Assembly (NCBI RefSeq): GCF_014646215.1
Contig: NZ_BMNA01000001.1
Span: 761,260-825,259 of the forward strand
Direction of reading: 5' to 3'
Origin: Nakamurella endophytica
Lineage (GTDB): Bacteria > Actinomycetota > Actinomycetes > Mycobacteriales > Nakamurellaceae
DNA: 64,000 bases
Shown here: one piece after another, positions 10,698 through 57,206 of the stretch
Layout: the number at the start of each line of letters is the position of its first letter
Position numbering within the stretch: position 1 is the stretch's first letter
Notes under the pieces: generated by a model
Databases searched by the model: none
What the model saw: only the letters and a program-made list of their open reading frames with translations
What the model was told of the DNA's origin: nothing
Position numbers and translations under genes: made by a program

Positions 10698-11804
10698 TCA
10701 GAAGGGCGTCACGGCGGTCCGGGTGAGCACCACCGCCACGCCGAAGGCGACGGTCAGCACGACGAGTTCCCAGCCGCACCACACGGCGATGGCGGTCGGC
10801 CGGCCCTCGGCGATGCGCGGCATCAAGCGGGTCCGCACCACCAGGGCGATGCCCGCGACGGCCGCCATGCAGACCGCCTTGGCGACGACCAGCACCCCGT
10901 ACCGGGTGTCCACCAGCGACCATGGCAGGTGCGTCACCGGGGACAGCGCCAGCTCCAGCAGGCCGTTGAACACCCCGGTGACGCCGACGACGAACACGCA
11001 CCAGGTCGCCAGGCGTGAGAACTTCGGCAGCGCCAGCGACAGCAGCTCCGGCCGGCGGGTCAGGAAGACGATGACCCCGAGCAGGCCACCGGCCCACACG
11101 CTGGCGCCGGCGACGTGCAGCTCCATCGACATCATCGACAGGTCGTGGTACTTCCAGTTCGACGCGTGACCGGTCAACGGCAACGGCAGCAACCCGAACA
11201 CCGCGACACCGACCCGCAGCTCCGCGGGCACCCGCTCGCCATGCCGGATCGACACCCGGGCGAGCCACAGGGACAGCGCGGCGCAGCCCGCCGACAGCAG
11301 CAGACCCTTGCCGGCGGCGATCTGGCCGATGTACGTCCACACCGCGCCGGGGGTGGGCGCCTGGCCGAACTCGGCGGTCAGCAGCACGATGGCGGCCAGT
11401 GCGGACAGGCCCCACACGGCACTGGTCCACACGGCCAGCGGCCGCACCCGGCTCATCACCGGCTCCGACAACTCGGCCCGGTCGAACCCCAGGAAGAGGC
11501 TGAGCAGGGCGAGCCCGGCAGTGGCGACGGCGCCGACGTCCAGCAAGGTGCGGACCAGTGGGATGCCGTAGGTCACCCACGCCCCGGGCCCCGGGATGCC
11601 GGGCACGGCGGGCTCCTGCGTCAGTCCGGCCCCGACCAGCGCGGCGACCACGGCCGCCGCGACCAGCAGCGCGGCGAAGGCACCCGAGCCGCGGACCAGA
11701 CCGGCGAAGCGGCTGCCGTCCACCGGCCGCGGGATGCCGCGGGTCCGCGGCGCACGCGAGCCGGTCGGTGCGGGATCGGCCCGCCGGGCCGGCGTGGAGG
11801 TCAC
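10698..11804 (-). CDS. CopD-family copper resistance membrane protein
   Basis: 368-aa membrane protein with about nine predicted helices. The CopD domain (roughly residues 215-320) is recognised by HVAGASVWAGGLLGVIVFL, FSRLATWCVFVVGVTGVFNGLLEL and TRYGVLVVAKAVCM. CopD proteins are implicated in copper uptake to the cytoplasm. Unlike many actinobacterial versions it has no fused cytochrome-oxidase-assembly domain. GTG 11804 has CACCAT six bases before it and no ribosome site (leaderless pattern). A second CopD domain, fused to CopC, occurs at about 45 kb. Confidence 0.85.
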   Translation of the reverse strand: MTSTPARRADPAPTGSRAPRTRGIPRPVDGSRFAGLVRGSGAFAALLVAAAVVAALVGAGLTQEPAVPGIPGPGAWVTYGIPLVRTLLDVGAVATAGLALLSLFLGFDRAELSEPVMSRVRPLAVWTSAVWGLSALAAIVLLTAEFGQAPTPGAVWTYIGQIAAGKGLLLSAGCAALSLWLARVSIRHGERVPAELRVGVAVFGLLPLPLTGHASNWKYHDLSMMSMELHVAGASVWAGGLLGVIVFLTRRPELLSLALPKFSRLATWCVFVVGVTGVFNGLLELALSPVTHLPWSLVDTRYGVLVVAKAVCMAAVAGIALVVRTRLMPRIAEGRPTAIAVWCGWELVVLTVAFGVAVVLTRTAVTPF

Positions 11805-37596: not shown

Positions 37597-38817
37597 TCAG
37601 CCCGCCGGCCGCCGGCGTAGCGCGATGACCGCAGCTCCTGCGGCCAGCACGGCGATGAAGACCGCCAGCGCCACTGCGGCGGTGAGCAGGGACGTCGTGG
37701 TGACGAGGACTCCGGCGGCCACCACCGGGATGGTCAGCCCGATGTAGGCGGCGATGAAGAAGGCGCTGATCACCTCGCCGCGGCGCTCGGGCGGGGCGAT
37801 CCCGGCCACGGTGGCCAGGCTGGCCCGGAAGGCGAACCCAACGCCGACGCCACCCACCAGCACCCCCACAATCAGCACGGGCAGCGACGACGCGGCGACC
37901 GCGACGACGATGACGACCGTCCCGACGGGCAGCGCCGACAGGCCGACGATCGTGCCGGTCCGCTCGGACAGCCGGCCGGCGGCCACCTGCGCCGCGGCGG
38001 CCGCGGCGAACAAGAGGAACGCGACCACGCCGGCCGTCTGGTGGCTCCGGTCGTGCAGGCCGACGGCGAGCACCTGACCGGCGAGCGCCGTGGTGAAGCC
38101 GAGCAGCGCGAACGACGCCAGCCCGGCGATCGCGGCGGCCAGGAACGGTGTGCGGATCTGTGCCGGCACGCCGACCCGCTGCAGGCTGATGCCGGCCCGG
38201 ACGCCGTCCCGCTCGCCGACCGTCTCGGGCGTGCGGAACAGCGGCAGCAGCACCACCGGCAGCAGGAGCGCCATCCCGGCCAGGTATGGGACGACCGTCG
38301 GGTCGGGCGCGTGGTCCGCCAGCACCCCGGCGATCAGCGGCCCCAAGCCGAGGCCGCCCATGTTGGCGACGGTGGCCAGGACCCCGGCGCGGCTGCGCTC
38401 GCCACGCGGTGCTTCCAGCTCCCCGATGTAGGCCGTCGCCGCCCCGGTGACCAGGCCGGCCGAGATGCCGGAGATGAACCGCCCCACGAAGAGCCAGACC
38501 AGGCTGTCGGTGGTGACGAAGACCAGCCCGGACAGCGCGGAGAAGGCGATCGCCGCGAGCACTACGGCCCGGCGGCCGACGTGGTCGGAGAGCCGGCCGA
38601 ACACCTGCAGAGTGCCCAGCACCCCGACCGCGTACACCGCGTAGATCACCGTGACGGTCAGCGGCGACAGCGACAGGCGGGCCGAGTAGATCGCGTACAG
38701 CGGGGTCGGCAGCGTCGTGGAGACCATGACCGCGGTGAACAGGTACGTCACCAGGAGGCTGTGCCGGCTTGCCGGACGCACTCCCGACAGATCCACGGTG
38801 CCGCTCTCCCTGCTCAC
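37597..38817 (-). CDS. MFS transporter (intact copy)
   Basis: 406-aa, 12-helix major facilitator, drug-efflux-like. Motif A-like VFGRLSDHVGRRAVVL after helix 2, GRFISGISAGLVTGAATAYIG in helix 5 region. Substrate unknown. GTG 38817 lies 6 bases after TAGCGT with no ribosome site (leaderless pattern). Its first ~142 codons and promoter are duplicated at 56763-57206, where the copy is broken; residues 19-120 are identical except Ile to Val at one position. Confidence 0.9.
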   Translation of the reverse strand: MSRESGTVDLSGVRPASRHSLLVTYLFTAVMVSTTLPTPLYAIYSARLSLSPLTVTVIYAVYAVGVLGTLQVFGRLSDHVGRRAVVLAAIAFSALSGLVFVTTDSLVWLFVGRFISGISAGLVTGAATAYIGELEAPRGERSRAGVLATVANMGGLGLGPLIAGVLADHAPDPTVVPYLAGMALLLPVVLLPLFRTPETVGERDGVRAGISLQRVGVPAQIRTPFLAAAIAGLASFALLGFTTALAGQVLAVGLHDRSHQTAGVVAFLLFAAAAAAQVAAGRLSERTGTIVGLSALPVGTVVIVVAVAASSLPVLIVGVLVGGVGVGFAFRASLATVAGIAPPERRGEVISAFFIAAYIGLTIPVVAAGVLVTTTSLLTAAVALAVFIAVLAAGAAVIALRRRPAG

Positions 38818-38832
38818 CCGGACACGCTAGCC
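38390..38832. repeat. Left copy of a ~443-bp direct repeat (5' end of MFS gene)
   Basis: Pairs with 56763-57206 in the same orientation. The central ~300 bp is almost identical (I count only a few substitutions); the outer ends are more diverged. Homology stops abruptly after CGCTAGCCC upstream of the gene start. Confidence 0.85.
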
Positions 38833-39245
38833 CCAGGCTTCCGGGGTCCCGCGCTGCGCCCGGCGGCCACGGATGTCGTCCGGCGGTGCGGGTCGGCAGC
38901 GTCCGGCGTCCGCTCACCCGCTCCCGGGTCGCGCGTCGTGGACGCCGACCGCGGCACGCCTCGAGTCGTGGCGATGCAAACCTCGACGTGGGAGTCACCG
39001 GTCGTCCGTCGCACCAGTGGTGGGTCGACGCCCTGCCGGCAGCGGTTCGGCGAGCGTGGACGTCGGTGGACGAAGACCGACCAGGATCGGCTCCAGGCGC
39101 GTGGTCGGTACGACGACCGCCGGTTCCGCTGGTATGCCACCGGAACCGGCGGCTCGGACCGCGAGTGCGTCCCGGTGATGCCCTCGATCACTGGTGTTGC
39201 ACAGCATTCGACCGCCGGTCGGACGTCATGGCCGGCGGTGTCCTG
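38833..39245. other. Intergenic stretch, no gene seen
   Basis: 413 bases downstream of the small secreted protein gene and upstream of the MFS gene. Six-frame translations are not protein-like and I see no terminator. It begins exactly where homology to the right-hand repeat ends. Confidence 0.4.
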
Positions 39246-40666: not shown

Positions 40667-41275
40667 CGTCGCATTGCCGCGGACAGGGCGGGCGCGCTCG
40701 CTGTCTGCCCGCCCGGCACGAGCGCGCTCGCGGCTGCAGTGTCGATGAGGGCCATGAACTTCGACGGTAGGTATCCCACATTTCCGCTCGGTGCCGCGAT
40801 CCGGCCGTGAGGTAACGAAAGGCTCACGCGTGCAGGCCGGACGCTGTGAACTCGGCCCGTCGGGCAATCCGTCCACGACAGCAACTCGGTCGCAGACGCC
40901 GCGACGACGTGTTCGGCCGCTCCTGTGCCCTCGAATGCCTTGGCGATATCGCGCCGCCTGCGTCGCTTCTCGCGTGCCGCCGGGATCGATCGTCGGCCTC
41001 CACCACCGACAGCCGTACCGGGACAGTGATCGTCATCGCACCGAGGACGCGGTGTGCGGCTCCACACCTCACCGAACGCGCGATTGTGAGGAAAAGTTGA
41101 CGCCGCGGCCACAGTCCTGGACCGGTGCCGCAATGTGCCGACCGCACCGTTGCGCCACCGGACCGAGCGAGCCGCCGCACCGGCCGCCGACCGGCCCACA
41201 CCGCAGACACCGGTTCCCGCCCAGGGGCCCGTCCAGTACCCGGCACGGACCGCCCGGGGAACCAGAGGGAGAAGC
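40667..41275. other. Divergent intergenic region upstream of the six-gene envelope operon
   Basis: 609 bases between the esterase (minus) and the beta-propeller gene (plus). Codon bias is absent in all frames. A relatively AT-rich TTGTGAGGAAAAGTTGACG at 41084-41102 may hold a -35-like TTGACG for the operon. No gene called. Confidence 0.4.
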
Positions 41276-42571
41276 ATGACCGAGAACCCGACTCGTCGCC
41301 CTGCGCGGGGTCCGAGCCGCCGCGGCTTCCTGGCCGGCTCCGCCGGCCTTGTGGCGGTCGCAGCCGCGGCCTGTTCCCCGTCCGGTAACAACTCGGCCGG
41401 TTCGTCGTCCGCCGCACCGGCGGCGTCGAACACCAACGCCGACTTCGAGTTGGCCAACGCCGGCGGCGTCCTGGGCTGGGCCGGCGTCGCCGTCATCGGT
41501 GCGGGTCAGAGCAACAAGCTGTTCATCATCGACGCCAAGTACCACAAGACCGTCACCACGATCTACAACCAGGTGCCCTACACCGAGCGGACCGATCCTG
41601 CGAAGTACCCGAACCTGCGCGACTCCCACGCGATCGTGTTCACCAAGGACTTCAAGCGGATGTTCACCGCCACCGCGTCGACCTACGCCCACTCCGTCGT
41701 CATCGAGTACGACCCGGTCACCTTGCTCGAGGTCGGCCGTGTCGACACGGGCACCGGGTCGCACCACCTCGCGCTGTCCCCGGACGACAAGTTCCTGTAC
41801 GCGGCCAACCAGTACGGCGCCAGCCTCACGGTGATCGACACCGCCACGATGAAGCACGTCACCGACATCAAGGTCGGTCAAGGGCCGGACTACATCTCGC
41901 CGAGCATGTACTGGGACGGCAAGGCGATCGACACGAAGTACCTGTGGGTGACCGTCGACGGCGGCAAGACGCTCGCGGTCATCGACTGGAAGACCAACAC
42001 CGTCGCGAAGCAGATCCCGATCCCGGCCACCGCCCACGGGATCAACCTGACGCCGGACGGAAAGTACGTCTGGATGGCCGGTCTCGCCTTCAAGGAGGTC
42101 TGGGTGATCGACAACAACACTCTCGAGGTGATCACCAAGCTGCCCATCCCCGGGTCGCCCATCCACATCAGCATCAGCCCGGACAGCAAGTACGCGTACG
42201 TCACCACGGCGGACAACCTGATTTACAAGGTCGACACGACCACGTATCAAACCCTTTGGCAGTCGAAGGGTACCGTCATCCCTGCCCACACCGGACTGAG
42301 CCCGGACGGCAAGGAGCTGTGGACCCTCAACCACGGCATGGACACCACCCGCTATCCCTACCTGCTCGGCGGCCAGCCGGTCGAAGGCGTGCAGATCTGG
42401 GAGACCGACGGCGGGAAGCTCATCGGTGAGATACCGATGGAGGCCATGCCGCACGAGATCCAGTTCGTGCCGTACTCGGCCTTCGGAACGCCCACGCCGC
42501 AGCAGGACATCAGCAACGGCGGTTCCACCGCCACAGCGTCGTCCGCGCCCTCGTCGCGGGCAGGGACGTGA
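41276..42571 (+). CDS. Tat-exported YVTN/YncE-like beta-propeller lipoprotein
   Basis: 431 aa. The signal has twin Arg (SRRGFLAGSAGL) and ends AAAACSPSG, a lipobox-like Cys. The mature part is a seven-blade-type propeller with repeated strands such as KLFIIDAKYHKTVTTI, HHLALSPDDKFLYAANQYG, SLTVIDTATMKHVTDIKVG and HGINLTPDGKYVWMAG. Tat export suggests folding or cofactor loading before secretion. The repeat type is related to YncE and cytochrome-d1 propellers, but no CxxCH is present. ATG 41276 follows AGAGGGAG. First gene of a six-gene run. Confidence 0.85.
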   Translation: MTENPTRRPARGPSRRGFLAGSAGLVAVAAAACSPSGNNSAGSSSAAPAASNTNADFELANAGGVLGWAGVAVIGAGQSNKLFIIDAKYHKTVTTIYNQVPYTERTDPAKYPNLRDSHAIVFTKDFKRMFTATASTYAHSVVIEYDPVTLLEVGRVDTGTGSHHLALSPDDKFLYAANQYGASLTVIDTATMKHVTDIKVGQGPDYISPSMYWDGKAIDTKYLWVTVDGGKTLAVIDWKTNTVAKQIPIPATAHGINLTPDGKYVWMAGLAFKEVWVIDNNTLEVITKLPIPGSPIHISISPDSKYAYVTTADNLIYKVDTTTYQTLWQSKGTVIPAHTGLSPDGKELWTLNHGMDTTRYPYLLGGQPVEGVQIWETDGGKLIGEIPMEAMPHEIQFVPYSAFGTPTPQQDISNGGSTATASSAPSSRAGT

Positions 42572-42620
42572 TCGACCCGCGCTGGTCACCGCCTCACCGA
42601 ACTCGCAGGAGAAGAACGAC

Positions 42621-43097
42621 ATGACCCGTAACACGCTCGATCGCAGAACCGCTCTCGTCGGAGCTGCCGCACTGGCCGCGAGCGGCGCGCTGGTGGCCTG
42701 CGGTGGCAACGACAGCGCGAGCGGCGCGACCGGCACGTCGGCGCAGACCACCTACGCCGGGATCGGCGGAGCAGTGCCGTCCTCAGCAGCGGCGCCGGCA
42801 GCGGCGTCCGGCGCACTGGGCAAGACCGCCGATGTTCCCGTCGGAAGCGGGAAGATCTTCGCTGACGCGAAGGTCGTGGTGACACAGCCTGCCTCGGGCA
42901 CGTTCAAGTGCTTCACCGCCGTGTGCACCCACCAGGGCTGCCTGGTCAGTCAGGTCACCGGTGACAACATCGTCTGCGGCTGTCACGGAAGCTCGTTCTC
43001 GATCAAGGACGGTTCGGTGACCAACGGTCCGGCGACCGAGCCGCTCAAGGAGGAGAAGGTCACCGTCTCCGGCGACGACCTGACTCTTGGCGCCTGA
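42621..43097 (+). CDS. Tat-exported Rieske 2Fe-2S lipoprotein
   Basis: 158 aa. Signal DRRTALVGAAALAASGALVAC gives twin Arg plus a lipobox Cys. Rieske ligands: CTHQGC and CGCHGSSFS; the extra Cys in each box (CTHxGC ... CxCHGS) is the bc1-type disulfide arrangement, implying a high redox potential. It is anchored outside the membrane and probably passes electrons to or from its neighbours. Follows the propeller gene by 49 bases. Confidence 0.92.
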   Translation: MTRNTLDRRTALVGAAALAASGALVACGGNDSASGATGTSAQTTYAGIGGAVPSSAAAPAAASGALGKTADVPVGSGKIFADAKVVVTQPASGTFKCFTAVCTHQGCLVSQVTGDNIVCGCHGSSFSIKDGSVTNGPATEPLKEEKVTVSGDDLTLGA

Positions 43098-43141
43098 TCC
43101 CGAGCGTCAACGTCCTGTCGGCTGGGAAGAAGGGCACGCTG

Positions 43142-43624
43142 GTGTTCGGAAGTGTCAACGGGCTGCCGGTGCATGCCCTGGTGCTGCATGCGGCCGTCGT
43201 GCTGGTCCCGGTGGCAGCCCTGGTGGCCATCGCCTTCGCGGTGCCCCGGTGGCGACGGGTGCTCCGCTGGCCGCTCGTCGCGCTGGCCGCGGTGTCGCTG
43301 GTCGTGGTGATCGTCGCGCGGCAGAGCGGTGAATCGCTGAGGGCATCCCTGGGGACCGGGCTTGCCAGCAGTGCGGCCGGCCCGCTGATCGCCGAGCACC
43401 AGACCGACAGCCTGCGACTGCTGATCGCGACGATCGTGCTGCTGGTGGTCGCCGTCGGGGCCTTCGTACTGCACTCGCGGCCCGCCCCACGATGGACGGG
43501 TGTCGGGACGTCGGTGCTGCTGGTGCTGGTGGCGGCAGCGGTCCTGTTCTTCACCTATCAGACCGGGGAGGCCGGCGCGAAGGCCGTCTGGAATCCCACG
43601 GGGACTCAGAAGTACTCCGGTTGA
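43142..43624 (+). CDS. DUF2231 membrane protein
   Basis: 160 aa with four hydrophobic helices. N-terminal GLPVHALVLHAAVVLVPV carries the conserved paired His of DUF2231, and AEHQTDSLRLL adds another His at a membrane edge, giving possible haem b ligands (inference). GTG 43142 follows the Rieske gene by 44 bases with GGGAAGAAGGG upstream. In this context it may be the membrane electron partner of the Rieske protein. Confidence 0.85.
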   Translation: MFGSVNGLPVHALVLHAAVVLVPVAALVAIAFAVPRWRRVLRWPLVALAAVSLVVVIVARQSGESLRASLGTGLASSAAGPLIAEHQTDSLRLLIATIVLLVVAVGAFVLHSRPAPRWTGVGTSVLLVLVAAAVLFFTYQTGEAGAKAVWNPTGTQKYSG

Positions 43625-43661
43625 TTCGGCCGCCAGCACCACAGCCCGAGCAGGAGCCTCC

Positions 43662-44327
43662 ATGTCCGTTGCAGACTGCCGTCCACGACGGGGTCGACGA
43701 GGTGGCCTGCTGCTGCTTATCGCCGTTGCCGTGGCGTCGGTGTCCTCCTGCGGCGGCCCGTCGGGCGGTGCGTCCCCCTCGACGACCGGGGTGATCGGTC
43801 AGGTGTGCTGCGTGGTGCCGGTCGACGGCGGCGCCGCGCAGGTGGGTGGGGTGTCGACCTCCTACAACGGCTGGGACACCGCCATGATCGTCTGGCTGGC
43901 CCCGCACGACGCGGTGGCCGGCCAGATGGCGGGTCTGGCTGCCACCCGGTCGCGGAACAGCACCGTTCGAGCGATCGCCGCTGCGACCGACACCGAGACC
44001 CAGGACCGGTATCTGACGCTGTCCCGGTTCGCGACCGCGTGGGGGCAGCCTGCGCCGTCGACCGACCCGGATGCGGCGTCCGGACACGATCACGGCGGCG
44101 GCACCAGCGAGTCGACCAACATCGACCAGTTGCAGAAGGCGCCGGCGGCCGGCTTCGACAAGCTCTTCCTCACCCTGATGATCGGCCACCACAAAGCTGC
44201 GCTGCCGATCGCCCGGGCGGCCATCGACAACGGGACGAATCCCCAGGACAAGGCCTTCGCCGCGCAGGTGCTCTCCTCCCAGCAGGCGGAGATCACGCAG
44301 ATGCAGAAGGCGTTGGCCGCCCTGTGA
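43662..44327 (+). CDS. DUF305 family lipoprotein
   Basis: 221 aa. Signal LLLLIAVAVASVSSC with lipobox Cys. DUF305 half-repeats: AMIVWLAPHDAVAGQMAGLA and LTLMIGHHKAALPIARAA, with His/Met pairs that are potential copper ligands, and a His-rich insertion (SGHDHGGG). Family function is uncertain, but members recur in copper clusters. ATG 43662 is six bases after CAGGAG. Overlaps the next gene by 4 bases (GTGA). Confidence 0.88.
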   Translation: MSVADCRPRRGRRGGLLLLIAVAVASVSSCGGPSGGASPSTTGVIGQVCCVVPVDGGAAQVGGVSTSYNGWDTAMIVWLAPHDAVAGQMAGLAATRSRNSTVRAIAAATDTETQDRYLTLSRFATAWGQPAPSTDPDAASGHDHGGGTSESTNIDQLQKAPAAGFDKLFLTLMIGHHKAALPIARAAIDNGTNPQDKAFAAQVLSSQQAEITQMQKALAAL

Positions 44328-46096
44328 CCCGAGCGGCCACTGGGGGACGACGGCTCCCGATCCGGGCAGTGCTCGTGCTGCTCGTCACGACAGTGGTGAC
44401 TGTGGTCGCCGCGGTGCCGGCGTCCGCCCACGCAACGCTGCTCGAGACCACTCCGGGCGACACCTCCGTCGTCCGGACCGCACCGCTGGAGGTCGACCTG
44501 CGCTACGACCAGCCGGTGAGCACCGCGCTGGGCGCGGTGCGAGTGCTGGACCCGGGCGGCAACCGGGTGGACAGCGGAACGGTCGCACAGCGGGACGACG
44601 GGCGCATCGTGGTTGCCGCGCTGAAGCCGGACCTGCCTCACGGCACCTACACGGTGCTGTGGCGGGTGCTGTCGGCGGATGCACACACCATCTTCGGCGC
44701 CTCGACCTTCAGCGTCGGAGCGCCCAGCAGCACGTCCGTCGCGGACCAGGAGCTCGAGCAGGACGACGGGGGCCGCGCGGCTGAGATCGGCCTGGAGGCA
44801 AGCCGGGTACTGTCGTACGGCGGGATAGTCCTGCTGTTCGGCGTTCTCGCCTTCGTCGCCCTGCTGTGGCCGGCCGGTCGACAGCGCCGCGCGGTCCGGC
44901 GGCTGGTCGACATCGGTTGGTGGGCCACCGTGGCCGGGACCGTGACCGGCGTACTGCTGCAGGGCCCGTACGCGTCCGGCCGTCCGCTGTCGGCGGCGGT
45001 CGACCCGGACGTGCTCGGTCAGGTACTGGCCACCCGCTTCGGCCTCGCCGCGGTCGCTCGGCTGGTGCTCCTGCTCGGCATCGGGTACGTGATGCGCCGG
45101 TCGCGGCACGGTCGGGGCGCTGGCGCTTCCAGCGTGCTCGCCGGACTGGGACTTGCCGTGCTCGTGAGCATCTCCGTCGTCGGCCACTCCGGCAGCTCGG
45201 ACCTCGCCGCGCTGGCCCTGCCGCTCGACGTGCTGCACATGGCCGCGGCGTCGGTCTGGCTGGGCGGCCTCACGGTCCTGGCGACGGTGCTGCTGCGCCG
45301 TCCTGACCCTGCCACGTCCGACGACCTCGCTCGGGTGCTACCTCGCTGGTCTGCGACCGCCGCCGGTTGTGTGCTCGTGCTCGTTGCCAGTGGCGCCTTC
45401 GCCGGCTGGCGGCAGATCCGCGAGTGGGGAGCGCTCACCGGTACCGGGTACGGGCGGTTGCTGATCGTCAAGTTCGGGCTGGTGGCCGGCATGGTGCTGT
45501 TCGGCGCACTGGGACGACAGCTCATCCAGCGGCGAATCCTGCACCCTGCACCGGGAGCCGTCGAGCCTGCCACCGAAGCCGAGCCGCTCCTTCTCGCCAC
45601 CGGGACGGACACGGCGACTCTCGTTACGACATCGGAGAAGCCGGCACAGCTCTCGGCGGCCGTCCGCATCCTGCGCCGCAGCGTACTGTTCGAGGCGGTG
45701 CTCGCGGCAGCGGTCCTGGTCGTGGCCGCCATCCTCGTCGGTACTGCACCGGCGCGCGACAGCTACGTCCCCACCTTCACCGCGTCCGCGCCCGCGACGT
45801 CCTCCCTGACCGTCGACGTGTCGGTCGCGCCGGCCAAGTCGGGGCTCAACGACTTGCAGCTCACCTACACCGGTCCCGGTGGACGCCCGACGGACGTGGT
45901 GGCGGCGACCGCCCGCTGGACCCAGCAGGGTGGCGGTGACGCTGTCGTGCCGGTCACCCTGACCCGGTCGGGGCCCGGGAGGTACACCATCACCCGCGTC
46001 GCCCTGCCGGCCGCCGGTCAGTGGCAGCTGGCGGTCACCACCCAGTCGAGCGACATCGATTCCAGCACCGTTCTGTTCGACGTCCGCGTGCGCTGA
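44324..46096 (+). CDS. CopC-CopD fusion copper protein
   Basis: 590 aa: signal peptide ending ASAHATLLETTPGD, so mature CopC begins with His as in copper-binding CopC; the CopC beta-sandwich (about 35-135) includes SADAHTIFGASTF. CopD membrane domain (about 160-450) with LDVLHMAAASVWLGGLTVL. A third, C-terminal exported domain (about 485-590) resembles YtkA/FixH-type beta domains. Start GTG overlaps the DUF305 stop. Predicted role: copper import or delivery. Confidence 0.92.
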   Translation: MTRAATGGRRLPIRAVLVLLVTTVVTVVAAVPASAHATLLETTPGDTSVVRTAPLEVDLRYDQPVSTALGAVRVLDPGGNRVDSGTVAQRDDGRIVVAALKPDLPHGTYTVLWRVLSADAHTIFGASTFSVGAPSSTSVADQELEQDDGGRAAEIGLEASRVLSYGGIVLLFGVLAFVALLWPAGRQRRAVRRLVDIGWWATVAGTVTGVLLQGPYASGRPLSAAVDPDVLGQVLATRFGLAAVARLVLLLGIGYVMRRSRHGRGAGASSVLAGLGLAVLVSISVVGHSGSSDLAALALPLDVLHMAAASVWLGGLTVLATVLLRRPDPATSDDLARVLPRWSATAAGCVLVLVASGAFAGWRQIREWGALTGTGYGRLLIVKFGLVAGMVLFGALGRQLIQRRILHPAPGAVEPATEAEPLLLATGTDTATLVTTSEKPAQLSAAVRILRRSVLFEAVLAAAVLVVAAILVGTAPARDSYVPTFTASAPATSSLTVDVSVAPAKSGLNDLQLTYTGPGGRPTDVVAATARWTQQGGGDAVVPVTLTRSGPGRYTITRVALPAAGQWQLAVTTQSSDIDSSTVLFDVRVR

Positions 46097-46132
46097 GCGA
46101 CATTCCGTCCGACCACCGACGAAAGGTCCGTC

Positions 46133-46915
46133 ATGCCCTCCTCCCTCCGCCGGGCGCTCACCGTCGCCGGCGCCTCCACCCTGTTGATCCTGGGCCCGCT
46201 GGCCGGCGCCGCCTGGGCGCATGTCGGCGTGACCGCCACCGACCCGACATCAGGGGTGGAGTCGACGATCACCTTCCGGGTGCCGACGGAGAAGGACATC
46301 CCCACCACCCAGGTCGAGGTGGCACTGCCGACCGACACCCCGCTGACGTCGGTGCAGGTCGAGGCCAAGGACGGCTGGAAGGTCTCGCTCACGAAGTCTG
46401 CACCTGCGCAACCGTTGAAGAACGAGGAAGGCGAAGCGGTCTCCGAGATCGTCACCCGGATCATCTGGACGGCGACCGGTGACGGGATCGCGCCCGACGA
46501 GTTCGCCGACTTCTCCGTCTTCGCCGATCCGCTGCCGGACGCCGACCAGCTGACCTTCAAGGTGCTGCAGACCTACAGCGACAGAACAGTCGTCTCGTGG
46601 ATCGAGGAGCAGGTCGCGGGCGGCCCGGAGCCGGACCATCCCGCTCCGGTGCTCAAGCTGGCCGCCGCGCCGGAGGTGGCAGCGGCCGGGACCGGGACGA
46701 GTGGAGCACCCGAGGAGAGCCCGCTGTCGACCGGGGCGGCGACGCCGACCGCTGCCACGGTGACGTCCACAGCGCCGGCCTCCGTCGCTGCAGAGTCGCC
46801 ATCCGGAGACGGTGGTGCGCTCACCCTCGGCTGGATCAGCCTGGTGGTCGCTGTGTCGGCGCTGGTCGTGGCACTGCTCGCCGCGTTGCGCAGGCGGCGC
46901 CTGCCGAGCGCCTGA
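46133..46915 (+). CDS. YcnI-family (DUF1775) copper-binding exported protein
   Basis: 260 aa: signal peptide ending GAAWA, mature N-terminal His (HVGVTATDPTSGVES) as in YcnI where it binds Cu(II); the DUF1775 fold continues with VPTEKDIPTTQVEVALPTD and FADFSVFADPLPD. A Pro/Ala/Ser-rich spacer and a C-terminal TM helix with RRRR anchor follow. Last gene of the run, 36 bases after copCD. Confidence 0.92.
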   Translation: MPSSLRRALTVAGASTLLILGPLAGAAWAHVGVTATDPTSGVESTITFRVPTEKDIPTTQVEVALPTDTPLTSVQVEAKDGWKVSLTKSAPAQPLKNEEGEAVSEIVTRIIWTATGDGIAPDEFADFSVFADPLPDADQLTFKVLQTYSDRTVVSWIEEQVAGGPEPDHPAPVLKLAAAPEVAAAGTGTSGAPEESPLSTGAATPTAATVTSTAPASVAAESPSGDGGALTLGWISLVVAVSALVVALLAALRRRRLPSA

Positions 46916-46950
46916 CGGCTCCGGCAACCGAAGCACGCTGGAAGCTCGCC

Positions 46951-46980
46951 GGCGGAACCGGTCGACGGCCCGGTTCCGCC
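46951..46980. terminator. Bidirectional hairpin after ycnI
   Basis: Perfect 11-bp stem GGCGGAACCGG/CCGGTTCCGCC with an 8-base loop, between ycnI (plus, ends 46915) and the HemD-like regulator (minus, ends 47003). Confidence 0.85.
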
Positions 46981-47002
46981 GGTGGACCCGACGCCGCCGG
47001 GG

Positions 47003-48136
47003 TCAGTAGCGCCCGGAGGTGTGTGGGTCGTACGCCAGCCGGTACCCGCGCTTGACCAGCGTCTGCACGATCTTCCCGTCACCGAGCGCGGACCGGAGCC
47101 GGCCGATCGCGGTCTCCAGCGCGTGCTCGTCCTCGACGGACAGGGCCTTGGCGAGACCGGCCCTGGACACCACGTGACCCGGGTGCTCGGCCAGCACCCG
47201 CATCACGGCCATCAACGTCGGCGGCAGCGGGCGGTACTGCCCGTCCACCACCACCCCCCGCCCGCGCACCGCGAGGTGATGGTGCGCGGCCACCATCCGC
47301 CGTTCCCGCCGCCGCGGCAGTTCCGTCTCGATCTCCCGGACCAGCGCTCCGAGCCGCGCCCTCTCCGGTTGCACGGTCGGAACTCCCGCGGTTGCCAGCG
47401 GTCCGGCAGTCACCGGGCCGACGGCCATCGCCGGCACCTCGCTGCGCATGGCCTCGAGCACCTCCGGATGGATGCCCAGAACGTCTGCCGTGCGCAGGAA
47501 ACTCACCACTGCGGGTGCACTGGTGAAGGTGATCGCATCCACTTCGCGCGCCGCGACCATCCCACACAACCGACGCAGCGGGGCGGGATCGTCCGGGGCG
47601 CTCCACGCGTACACGCCGACATCGATCACCTCGGCGCCGGCGCTGCGCAGTGCCTGTGCCATGTCCGGCAACGGCTCGCCGTGCAGCTGGAGCGCGACAC
47701 GCTTCCCGTGGAGGGGCATCTCCAGCATCTTCTCGAGCAGTTCACTCGAGGATTCGGAGGGCGGGGACCATTCGCCCGACAGGCCGGCAGCCCGCATGGC
47801 GCCCCTGGCCTTCGGTCCGCGCGCCAGCAGGGTGGCGCCGGACAGCCGGTCCAGCAGCGCATCGCCCAGTCCCCAACCATCCGCCGCCTCGATCCACCCG
47901 CGGAAACCGATACCGGTGGTCGCCACCACGTAGTCCGGCGGCTCGACCAGACACGTCCGGGTCGCCTGGTAGAGATCCTTGTCGTCGACCAACGGCCCGA
48001 TCTGGATGGCGGGACCGTGCACGACGGTGGCACCACGCCGGGACAACGCGGATGCGAATTCCTCCTTGCGGCGCGCGGCCGTGATCCCGATCACGAATCC
48101 GGCGAGCGGCGGCACGTCCGGGCTGGGAACGGTCAT
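47003..48136 (-). CDS. Uroporphyrinogen-III synthase-like / winged-helix regulator
   Basis: 377 aa: HemD-like domain (about 10-260: GFVIGITAARRKEEFASAL, TTGIGFRGWIEAADGWG, ITFTSAPAVVSFL) plus a C-terminal OmpR-type winged helix (about 275-370: PPTLMAVMRVLAEHPGHVVSR ... LVKRGYRLAYD). This architecture is the actinobacterial nitrite/nitrate-cluster regulator (Rv0260c-type), divergent from narK as here. Whether the HemD part is catalytic or senses tetrapyrrole is unknown. ATG 48136 has AACGCT six bases upstream (leaderless pattern); GTG 48163 is an alternative. Confidence 0.88.
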   Translation of the reverse strand: MTVPSPDVPPLAGFVIGITAARRKEEFASALSRRGATVVHGPAIQIGPLVDDKDLYQATRTCLVEPPDYVVATTGIGFRGWIEAADGWGLGDALLDRLSGATLLARGPKARGAMRAAGLSGEWSPPSESSSELLEKMLEMPLHGKRVALQLHGEPLPDMAQALRSAGAEVIDVGVYAWSAPDDPAPLRRLCGMVAAREVDAITFTSAPAVVSFLRTADVLGIHPEVLEAMRSEVPAMAVGPVTAGPLATAGVPTVQPERARLGALVREIETELPRRRERRMVAAHHHLAVRGRGVVVDGQYRPLPPTLMAVMRVLAEHPGHVVSRAGLAKALSVEDEHALETAIGRLRSALGDGKIVQTLVKRGYRLAYDPHTSGRY

Positions 48137-48443
48137 CCCGACAGCGTTCGCCTCGGCCGTCACTGGGGTGGGTCCGTGAGGTAAACGAGAGATGACGAGG
48201 CCGGGACTGCACTCTCCGAAACAGGCTGTCCACCCAGCTGGTCCAGCGGCTCACACCTGCGAGGCCCCGGGTGTGCGGACAACACAACCGAACGGTTACG
48301 CCGCGGATACGCCGTCACACCGTCCGGCCGGAACGCTGTTCTTCGAAAGCCCGCGCGGTCCGGTCGGCTCCCGCCGCGGCAGGCGCTCCGTGCGTATCCA
48401 CCGTGCCGTCCGCCGGCCCGAACCAGTCCAGGAGGACATCGAG
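48137..48443. other. Divergent regulatory region upstream of narK
   Basis: About 300 bases with no gene. Contains a GlnR-like box (see 48295) and should hold promoters for narK and the HemD-like regulator. Confidence 0.45.
48295..48310. promoter_or_regulatory. Candidate GlnR box
   Basis: GTTAC-GCCGCG-GATAC matches the actinobacterial GlnR half-site pattern GTnAC-n6-GnAAC with one mismatch, 134 bases before the narK start. Nitrogen control of such clusters by GlnR is established in other actinomycetes. Confidence 0.4.
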
Positions 48444-49844
48444 ATGAGTTCTACCACACAGGAACTGCCGCACTCCGGGGCGGCACCGGGAGCAGGGGTC
48501 CGCGGTCGCTCGAAGCTGGGTGGCCGCTGGATCGACGACTGGCGCCCCGAGGATCCCGCCTTCTGGTCGTCCATCGGCCGCCGGGTCGCCAACCGCAACC
48601 TCTGGTTCTCGGTCGCGACCGAGCACATCGGTTTTTCGGTGTGGAGCCTGTGGTCGGTGATGGTTCTGTTCATGGGCCCGACGTACCACGTGGACGCGGC
48701 CGGCAAGTTCCTGTTGACCGCCCTGCCGACCCTGGTCGGCTCGGTGTTGCGGATCCCCTACACCTTCGCCGTGGCACGGTTCGGCGGCCGCAACTTCACG
48801 ATCGCCAGTGCCCTGCTGCTGCTGATCCCCTGCATCTTCATCGCCGTCGTGATGTCGCCGGGGGTCTCGTACTCCACGCTGTTGATCGCCGCAGCGACAG
48901 CAGGTGTCGGCGGCGGCAACTTCGCCTCGTCGATGACGAACATCAACTCCTTCTACCCGGCCAAGGAGAAGGGATGGGCCCTCGGCCTGAACGCCGGCGG
49001 CGGCAACCTGGGTGTCGCGGTGGTGCAGCTCGTTGCGCTGCTGGTGCTGGCCACCGCCGGTGCGTCCCACCCGAGGGTGATGGTGGCGATCTACATCCCG
49101 CTGATCGTCCTCGGCGCGCTCGGCGCGGCGCTGACCATGGACAACCTGACCGTCGCCAGCAACGCGAAGGGCGCCATGCGCCGGGTGTCGAAGGACGCGC
49201 ACACCTGGATCATCGCGCTCCTCTACATCGGGACCTTCGGTTCGTTCATCGGCTTCGGCTTCGCCTTCGGCCAAGTGCTGCAGGTGCAGTTCACCGGCAC
49301 GTTCTCCACCCCGGTCAAGGCCGCGTACCTGACCTTCCTCGGACCGCTGATCGGTTCGCTGATCCGTCCGGTGGGCGGCAGGCTCGCCGACCGCTTCGGC
49401 GGCGCCAGCGTCAGCTTCTTCAATTTCGTGCTGATGGCAGTCTCGACTGCGGTCGTCCTGGGCGGGTCGCTGTCCAAGTCGCTACCGGTGTACCTGATCG
49501 GCTTCGTCCTGCTGTTCGCCTTCTCCGGCGTGGGCAACGGTTCCGTGTACAAGATGATCCCGGCCATCTTCCGGTCGAAGGCATCCCGCAAGGTCGCCGC
49601 CGGTGCGGAGCCGGGACAGACCCACGCCGAGGCCCACCGACTCTCCGGTGCGCTGATCGGTATCGCCGGTGCCATCGGCGCCTTCGGCGGCGTGCTGGTG
49701 AACCTGGCCTTCCGGTCCTCGTTCCTTGCCTACAAGAACGCGAACGCCGCGTTCGTCGCCTTCATCGCCTTCTACGTGCTCTGCCTGGTGGTGACCTGGG
49801 CGGTGTACCTGCGCCGGTCCCCTGCCCGGCTCGAGGGTGTCTGA
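48444..49844 (+). CDS. narK: Nitrate/nitrite transporter NarK (MFS)
   Basis: 466 aa, 12 helices. NarK/NasA signatures: GGGNFASSMTNINSFYP in helix 5 and GAGNGSVYKMIP-type motif (here GVGNGSVYKMIP) in helix 11, the Gly/Asn-rich nitrate-binding helices. Imports nitrate or exports nitrite for the downstream reductases. ATG 48444 has AGGAGG at the right spacing. The stop overlaps cysG by 8 bases. Confidence 0.93.
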   Translation: MSSTTQELPHSGAAPGAGVRGRSKLGGRWIDDWRPEDPAFWSSIGRRVANRNLWFSVATEHIGFSVWSLWSVMVLFMGPTYHVDAAGKFLLTALPTLVGSVLRIPYTFAVARFGGRNFTIASALLLLIPCIFIAVVMSPGVSYSTLLIAAATAGVGGGNFASSMTNINSFYPAKEKGWALGLNAGGGNLGVAVVQLVALLVLATAGASHPRVMVAIYIPLIVLGALGAALTMDNLTVASNAKGAMRRVSKDAHTWIIALLYIGTFGSFIGFGFAFGQVLQVQFTGTFSTPVKAAYLTFLGPLIGSLIRPVGGRLADRFGGASVSFFNFVLMAVSTAVVLGGSLSKSLPVYLIGFVLLFAFSGVGNGSVYKMIPAIFRSKASRKVAAGAEPGQTHAEAHRLSGALIGIAGAIGAFGGVLVNLAFRSSFLAYKNANAAFVAFIAFYVLCLVVTWAVYLRRSPARLEGV

Positions 49845-56762: not shown

Positions 56763-57189
56763 CGGCTGCGCTCCCCGCGCGGGGCCTCCAGCTCCCCGAT
56801 GTAGGCGGTCGTCGCGCCGGTGACCTGCCGGCCGAGATGCCGGAGACGAAGCGCCCCACGAAGAGCCAGACCAGGCTGTCGGTGGTGACGAAGACCAGCC
56901 CGGACAGCGCGGAGAAGGCGATCGCCGCGAGCACTACGGCCCGGCGGCCGACGTGGTCGGAGAGCCGGCCGAACACCTGCAGGGTGCCGAGCACGCCGAC
57001 CGCGTACACCGCGTAGATCACCGTGACGGTCAGCGGCGACAGCGACAGGCGGGCCGAGTAGATCGCGTACAGCGGGGTCGGCAGCGTCGTGGAGACCATG
57101 ACCGCGGTGAACAGGTACGTCACCAGGAGGCTGTGCCGGCTGCCCGGTCGCGCCGCCGACGGATCCGCGGTGTCGCTCTCCCTGCTCAC
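56763..57189 (-). pseudogene. Truncated MFS transporter (partial duplicate of 37597-38817)
   Basis: Starts with the same GTG and TAGCGT promoter-like hexamer as the intact gene. Residues corresponding to 19-120 are identical save Ile to Val. Near 56825 the intact ACCAGGCC reads ACCTGCC, a net one-base deletion that shifts the frame; homology ends at the position of codon 142, leaving no helices 6-12. Not functional. Confidence 0.9.
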
Positions 57190-57206
57190 CCGGTCACGCT
57201 AGCCCG
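56763..57206. repeat. Right copy of the ~443-bp direct repeat
   Basis: Same orientation as 38390-38832. Includes the truncated gene and about 17 bases upstream of its start. Distance between copies is about 18.4 kb. Confidence 0.85.

Follow-up and report, generated by a model that had tools for sequence, protein, structure and literature searches.

Six adjacent genes of Nakamurella endophytica, located at positions 41276-46915 of the 64,000-nucleotide stretch of DNA analyzed here (the window), join an exported beta-propeller to a Rieske protein, a DUF2231 membrane protein and three copper-associated families, which raises the question of what these proteins do together outside the membrane. 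The original prediction, made from the sequence alone, described a copper-linked envelope electron-transfer module, possibly serving nitrite or NO chemistry. Our analysis retains this module and refines it, since the copper site likely resides on the propeller itself, whereas the guess of nitrite or NO chemistry proved weak. With a probability slightly better than even, the operon encodes a copper-hub oxidoreductase that has a Rieske protein as its partner.

Organization of the six-gene operon

All six open reading frames are located on the + strand and are contiguous, with intergenic distances of 49, 44, 37, -4, and 36 bases, in agreement with the short gaps or overlap described before. The first gene (41276-42571) encodes the propeller, a seven-bladed Tat lipoprotein and candidate copper enzyme without a CuA domain. 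It is followed by the genes for a Rieske [2Fe-2S] protein of the bc1/b6f/AioB type (42621-43097), likewise a Tat lipoprotein and the proposed electron partner, and for a four-helix DUF2231 membrane protein, the proposed membrane redox anchor (43142-43624). The second half of the operon comprises the genes for a His-rich DUF305 (CopM-like) protein, probably a lipoprotein and proposed to act as extracytoplasmic copper carrier (43662-44327), for a CopC-CopD fusion, whose C-terminal domain is YtkA/FixH-like and which is proposed to bind and transport copper (44324-46096), and for YcnI (DUF1775), which has a C-terminal membrane helix and is proposed to be a Cu(II) chaperone (46133-46915). The Pfam gathering scores were exceeded for Rieske, DUF2231, DUF305, CopC, CopD, and DUF1775/YcnI, so that the family labels given earlier to these genes hold. 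The propeller and the Rieske protein carry twin-arginine signals ending in the lipobox-like sequences ...AAAC and ...LVAC, respectively, and the Rieske motif CTHQGC...CGCHGSS comprises both CxHxxC and CxCHxS including the two extra cysteines, in line with the predicted pair of Tat lipoproteins, one of them with a high-potential-type cluster. The original prediction had also placed a terminator only at the end of the operon. Because a scan of positions 40700-48300 revealed no terminator, neither between the six genes nor after the last one, this detail could not be confirmed. Moreover, a simple pattern search did not reveal GlnR- or CsoR-like boxes upstream of the operon.

Distribution and genomic context

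The six-gene set is found together in four genomes, namely those of the host, of Rhodococcoides kyotonense, and of two further members of the host genus, termed G407 and G398. The gene order is kept in R. kyotonense (L005), where narK and a frame that by eye is NirB-like follow, as well as in G407 (L010), which is devoid of narK, while in G398 (L009) the DUF2231 gene is shifted beyond narK and still resides inside the cluster. The neighborhood survey proposed with the original prediction thus shows that the Rieske, DUF2231 and propeller genes are kept together in four genomes and are not scattered. Across these genomes the orthologues are 71-75% identical for the propeller and 55-58% for the Rieske protein, and one pair compared for each of DUF305, CopCD, and YcnI yielded 45-51% identity.

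Of 17 genomes of the host genus, 3 contain the propeller. A sample of 399 genomes of the order likewise yielded 3 carriers, each of them a member of the host genus, and samples of 395 genomes of the class and 396 genomes of the phylum added no other genome. The next-best propellers in a sample of the class gave an E-value of 1e-17, compared with 1e-258 or better for the orthologues. Because of this gap and the sparse occurrence, the propeller is, judged by sequence, a discrete and rare family. Likewise, the six-gene unit is real but rare, and its genes travel together in the four genomes beyond chance. In G407, two genes that resemble each other closely and by eye are transposase-like (L010, 2586-3830 and 6309-7553) lie a few kb downstream of the operon, which suggests mobility.

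In the host, the operon is located between two copies of a 444-bp direct repeat, which mark the left (38390-38833) and right (56763-57205) edges of an island of about 18 kb. The two copies are 94.6% identical to each other and contain the 5′ part of an MFS gene, which is complete at one copy and truncated at the other; a tRNA was not found at the island edges. The third-position G+C content of the block is 0.871 versus 0.941 in the remaining window (one-sided Mann-Whitney test on hand-picked genes, p 3e-6). Because of the flanking repeats and the lower third-position G+C, the sequence suggests that the operon was acquired together with the neighboring assimilatory nitrate genes, which code for NarK, CysG, a NasC-like protein and NirB. 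The gene for the NarK-family nitrate/nitrite transporter (48285-49844, + strand) lies 3′ of the six genes in three of the four genomes; in the host it is found beyond hemD, which is encoded on the opposite strand, and narK stands beside the operon in G398 and R. kyotonense as well.

A conserved histidine set at the hub of the propeller

The propeller scores above the cut-offs of the YncE, Lactonase and cytochrome-D1 models and far under that of L-NosZ. Alignment of the four orthologues revealed invariant histidines at positions 90, 118, 163, 164, 254, 297, 338, 353, and 393. When the blades are numbered by counting together with the predicted model (overall pLDDT 67.6, with higher values across the greater part of the core and disordered termini), the hub residues are H393 (blade I), H118 (II), H163 and H164 (III), D205 (IV), H254 (V), H297 (VI), and H338 (VII). 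In the model, H118, H163, H254, H297, H338, and H393 are predicted to be placed where the innermost strand of their blade begins or immediately ahead of it. Thus, one equivalent position per blade (H118, H163, D205, H254, H297, H338, H393) is occupied by histidine in six of seven cases and by aspartate in the remaining one, and these residues are invariant in the four orthologues. Given 11 histidines in 345 residues, the chance of six in seven is about 1e-9, or 7e-8 if 50 registers are allowed. None of 29 background propellers of the class has the histidine set. Relatives of the propeller encoded on plasmids were considered as kin and rejected, as they are of the general YVTN/YncE type and both that were checked are devoid of the set. 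A structure prediction for copper sites in the propeller had been proposed, and on a model of the above quality the six-blade pattern would be compatible with such a site. Taken together, sequence and model indicate that the propeller likely holds a candidate hub copper site. The preferred mechanism would then start from an exported, lipid-anchored oxidoreductase, whose hub copper is bound by six or seven histidines and possibly an aspartate.

The Rieske protein and DUF2231 as putative electron path

The Rieske ligands C102, H104, C119, and H122 and the disulfide pair C107/C121 belong to a motif whose cysteines and histidines are invariant in the four orthologues. The relatives of the protein in the PDB include chains of b6f, bc1, and AioB, with b6f and bc1 among the best. 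Like AioB, the small subunit of arsenite oxidase, and other Tat-exported Rieske proteins, it would represent a bc1-type partner of an extracytoplasmic oxidoreductase; unlike AioB, it resembles a lipoprotein and its proposed partner is a copper propeller. We propose a scheme in which the Rieske lipoprotein would exchange electrons with the propeller and stand in for the CuA domain of NosZ.

Related Rieske genes on Rhodococcus plasmids are found near genes for a multicopper oxidase, metal transporters, CopD or cytochrome-oxidase assembly. Because these relatives adjoin copper and metal genes, they may recurrently serve as partners of secreted copper proteins. On two of the plasmids (L096, L099) a multicopper oxidase, a metal transporter and a Rieske protein form a recurrent cassette, in the vicinity of which a gene for CopD or cytochrome-oxidase assembly is located, and it is possible that this cassette represents another Rieske-cuproenzyme pairing.

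The DUF2231 protein exceeds the threshold of PF09990 (42.4 vs. 26.4 bits), as do all its orthologues, and its predicted model consists of four helices (pLDDT 91.5). H11, H16, and H86, invariant in 14 sequences, are located where helices 1 and 3 begin, and for this reason they probably lie on one face of the membrane in the modeled structure. The original prediction had also proposed to look for a haem site in DUF2231; because the fold search yielded no significant match in the PDB, such a site finds no support from structure. Among 30 other DUF2231 loci, we observed three fusions to a Rieske domain (L073, L080, L085) and one to a cytochrome b5 haem domain (L084, 1483-2274). None of these 30 loci contains a separate bc1-type Rieske gene beside DUF2231, and the Rieske domains of the three fusions are of other kinds. 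The fusions provide good evidence, at the level of sequence, that DUF2231 works with redox domains, and the protein may bind haem or quinone. Its general role would seem to be that of a membrane redox anchor, which in the present case would tie the propeller-Rieske pair to the membrane quinone/bc1 chain. DUF2231 is present in 82 of 118 genomes of Actinobacteria, and in the literature searched it is mentioned only in a database article. If the proposed electron path holds true, this widespread domain would gain a testable role.

Relation to nitrous oxide reductases and direction of the reaction

To our knowledge, the copper cluster of NosZ is one of the few multi-copper hub sites known. In NosZ every blade except IV provides a CuZ histidine, blade II provides two, and the innermost strand of blade I derives from the C-terminus (PMC11573801). 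As in NosZ of clades I and II, the hub histidines of the propeller, with the blades numbered as above, would lie on blades I, II, III, V, VI, and VII but not on IV, and the histidine of blade I on the C-terminal strand. In contrast to NosZ, the propeller has its HH doublet on blade III and a single histidine on blade II, blade IV offers an aspartate, and H353 sits at the position of a conserved lysine. When the propeller profile was aligned by hhalign to that of eight NosZ proteins from actinobacteria, H254, H297, and H393 fell on the CuZ motifs NPHG, GPLH, and EPHY, although the match is weak (probability 13%, E 0.002, with a query profile of four close sequences), and in pairwise alignments the N-terminal blades can slip by one blade, which renders the register there uncertain. 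Among about 2000 hits of the fold search, NosZ chains took ranks 3, 5, 7, and 12, with a YVTN surface protein of archaeal origin ahead of them, and the scores for the NosZ families TIGR04244 (25.3 of 625 bits) and TIGR04246 (15.2 of 625 bits) are far below the cut-offs.

Among the NCBIfam families, the lowest E-value for all four orthologues was obtained with the clade III enzyme L-NosZ (NF052460; 8e-39 at best). The match is long and collinear without large insertions, residues 152-402 aligning with profile positions 79-325; unlike L-NosZ, the propeller has no counterpart of the remainder of the 480-position profile, presumably CuA, and its 108.6 bits do not reach the cut-off of 700. Members of L-NosZ above this cut-off were found neither in the sampled phylum nor in one class. 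Other lineages of the phylum (L013-L021) have complete NosZ genes, which carry the CuZ as well as the CuA motif and match the L-NosZ model below its cut-off.

The propeller also differs from NosZ in that a CuA cupredoxin domain and NosL are missing and a separate Rieske protein is present. The protein stops after the propeller, the CuA motif CxxxCxxxHxxM is absent from the window and from L005 and L009-L011, and a search for NosL (PF05573) in 17 genomes of the host genus gave no match, with positive controls in 2. A CuA-less N2O (or NO) reductase, an offshoot of clade III working in the reverse direction with quinol electrons delivered via DUF2231 and the Rieske protein, would account for the L-NosZ match, the CuZ-like blade occupancy, the high ranks of NosZ in the fold search and the nitrate genes adjoining the operon. 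We consider it unlikely, given the distance to the L-NosZ cut-off, the displaced HH doublet, H353 in place of the lysine, and the missing CuA and NosL. In addition, the three carriers of the host genus contain neither NarG nor a NirK above the cut-off, which together with the absence of NosL argues against an ordinary denitrification context. The suggested nitrite or NO chemistry is weakened by the same absences; moreover, the nitrate genes are assimilatory and one of the four genomes does not have them.

From the nitrogen-assimilation neighbors and the lack of NarG, NirK, and NosL in the carriers, we therefore lean toward oxidation. The propeller might oxidize a small nitrogen-containing anion, e.g., thiocyanate or cyanide, for nitrogen supply, and the electrons would pass to the Rieske protein, as they do in arsenite oxidase; this part of the mechanism is less certain, and the oxidative direction, taken alone, is doubtful. 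In R. kyotonense a CynX/NimT-family transporter, whose score is under the cut-off of that family, is encoded upstream of the operon. In G398 the MSMEG_0565-0572 nitrogen-starvation cluster (L009, 1178-8108) is divergent from the propeller operon and comprises genes for a radical SAM protein, a GNAT/AIR-synthase-like protein, a glycosyltransferase, the MSMEG_0572 protein and two nitrilase-like proteins; we take it to be the Nit1C cluster, tied to cyanide assimilation. The neighboring genes behind the substrate argument thus differ among the four genomes. N2O or NO reduction is the main rival to oxidation.

Thiocyanate dehydrogenase (TcDH) is likewise a seven-bladed propeller, with a three-copper hub, and in Thioalkalivibrio its gene is flanked by copC and copD. 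The operon similarly pairs its propeller with CopC-CopD, a likeness that concerns the fold and the gene neighbors. The partner of TcDH is a cytochrome c, in contrast to the Rieske protein found here. TcDH presumably has an aspartate ligand on one blade, which D205 would fit.

More specifically, and only tentatively, the operon may encode a NosZ-superfamily copper-cluster propeller enzyme without CuA, with the Rieske lipoprotein and DUF2231 as electron port and CopCD, YcnI, and DUF305 instead of Nos proteins for assembly. Such an enzyme might serve non-denitrifying actinobacteria as an unrecognized N2O sink or in the oxidation of thiocyanate or cyanide. There is a modest chance that the operon represents a new enzyme class. 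NosZ is described as the sole known N2O-reducing enzyme (PMC13122619). If real, a relative devoid of CuA and connected to a Rieske protein would show how such hub sites can be coupled to different electron carriers and can receive their copper in the absence of NosL.

Proposed copper supply by the downstream genes

CopC, CopD, DUF305, and YcnI are copper-handling families. CopC (82.8 vs. 23.3 bits) and CopD (51.1 vs. 32.1 bits) passed Pfam gathering and missed the NCBIfam equivalog cut-offs; DUF305 passed in Pfam (98.3 vs. 27 bits) and missed CopM NF049983 (47.6 bits vs. a cut-off of 90). YcnI scored 138 vs. 25 bits with PF07987 and has a histidine directly after the signal peptide (...AAWAHVGV). 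In Bacillus, YcnI is described as a copper-binding protein between which and YcnJ Cu(II) is exchanged (PMC8424229, PMC12362106). Because the linkage to copper genes is shared with a known case, the analogy suggests that DUF305, CopC-CopD, and YcnI load copper into the propeller, and under the oxidoreductase reading they would hand it to the apo-propeller outside the membrane.

The same genes, which fill the second half of the operon, could instead serve copper homeostasis, the propeller being a copper store or chaperone without turnover and the Rieske protein setting the redox state of copper. AztD provides a precedent, as this extracytoplasmic propeller uses hub histidines for a metal site and acts as a zinc metallochaperone (PMC6689063), and the Rhodococcus plasmid relatives of the Rieske protein reside among metal-transport genes. 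Unlike the propeller studied here, AztD binds zinc, employs three hub histidines (site 1) and is partnered with a zinc ABC transporter. Seven or eight invariant histidines in the NosZ blade pattern exceed what one chaperone site needs, the unit comprises neither a copper regulator nor a P-type ATPase, and nitrogen-assimilation genes are nearby in three of the four genomes, all of which renders pure homeostasis improbable. It is very improbable that the protein is an ordinary metal-free YVTN/YncE-type surface propeller with structural histidines that came by chance into a redox operon: although its top match in structure and sequence is an archaeal surface-layer YVTN protein and general YVTN propellers match its sequence at least as well as NosZ does, the hub set is missing from the background propellers and improbable by chance, and in each of the four genomes the gene is linked to those for the Rieske and copper proteins.

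Elsewhere in the window, a second CopD-family gene is located on the minus strand at approximately 10725-11033, and four CopD matches were found in the genome.
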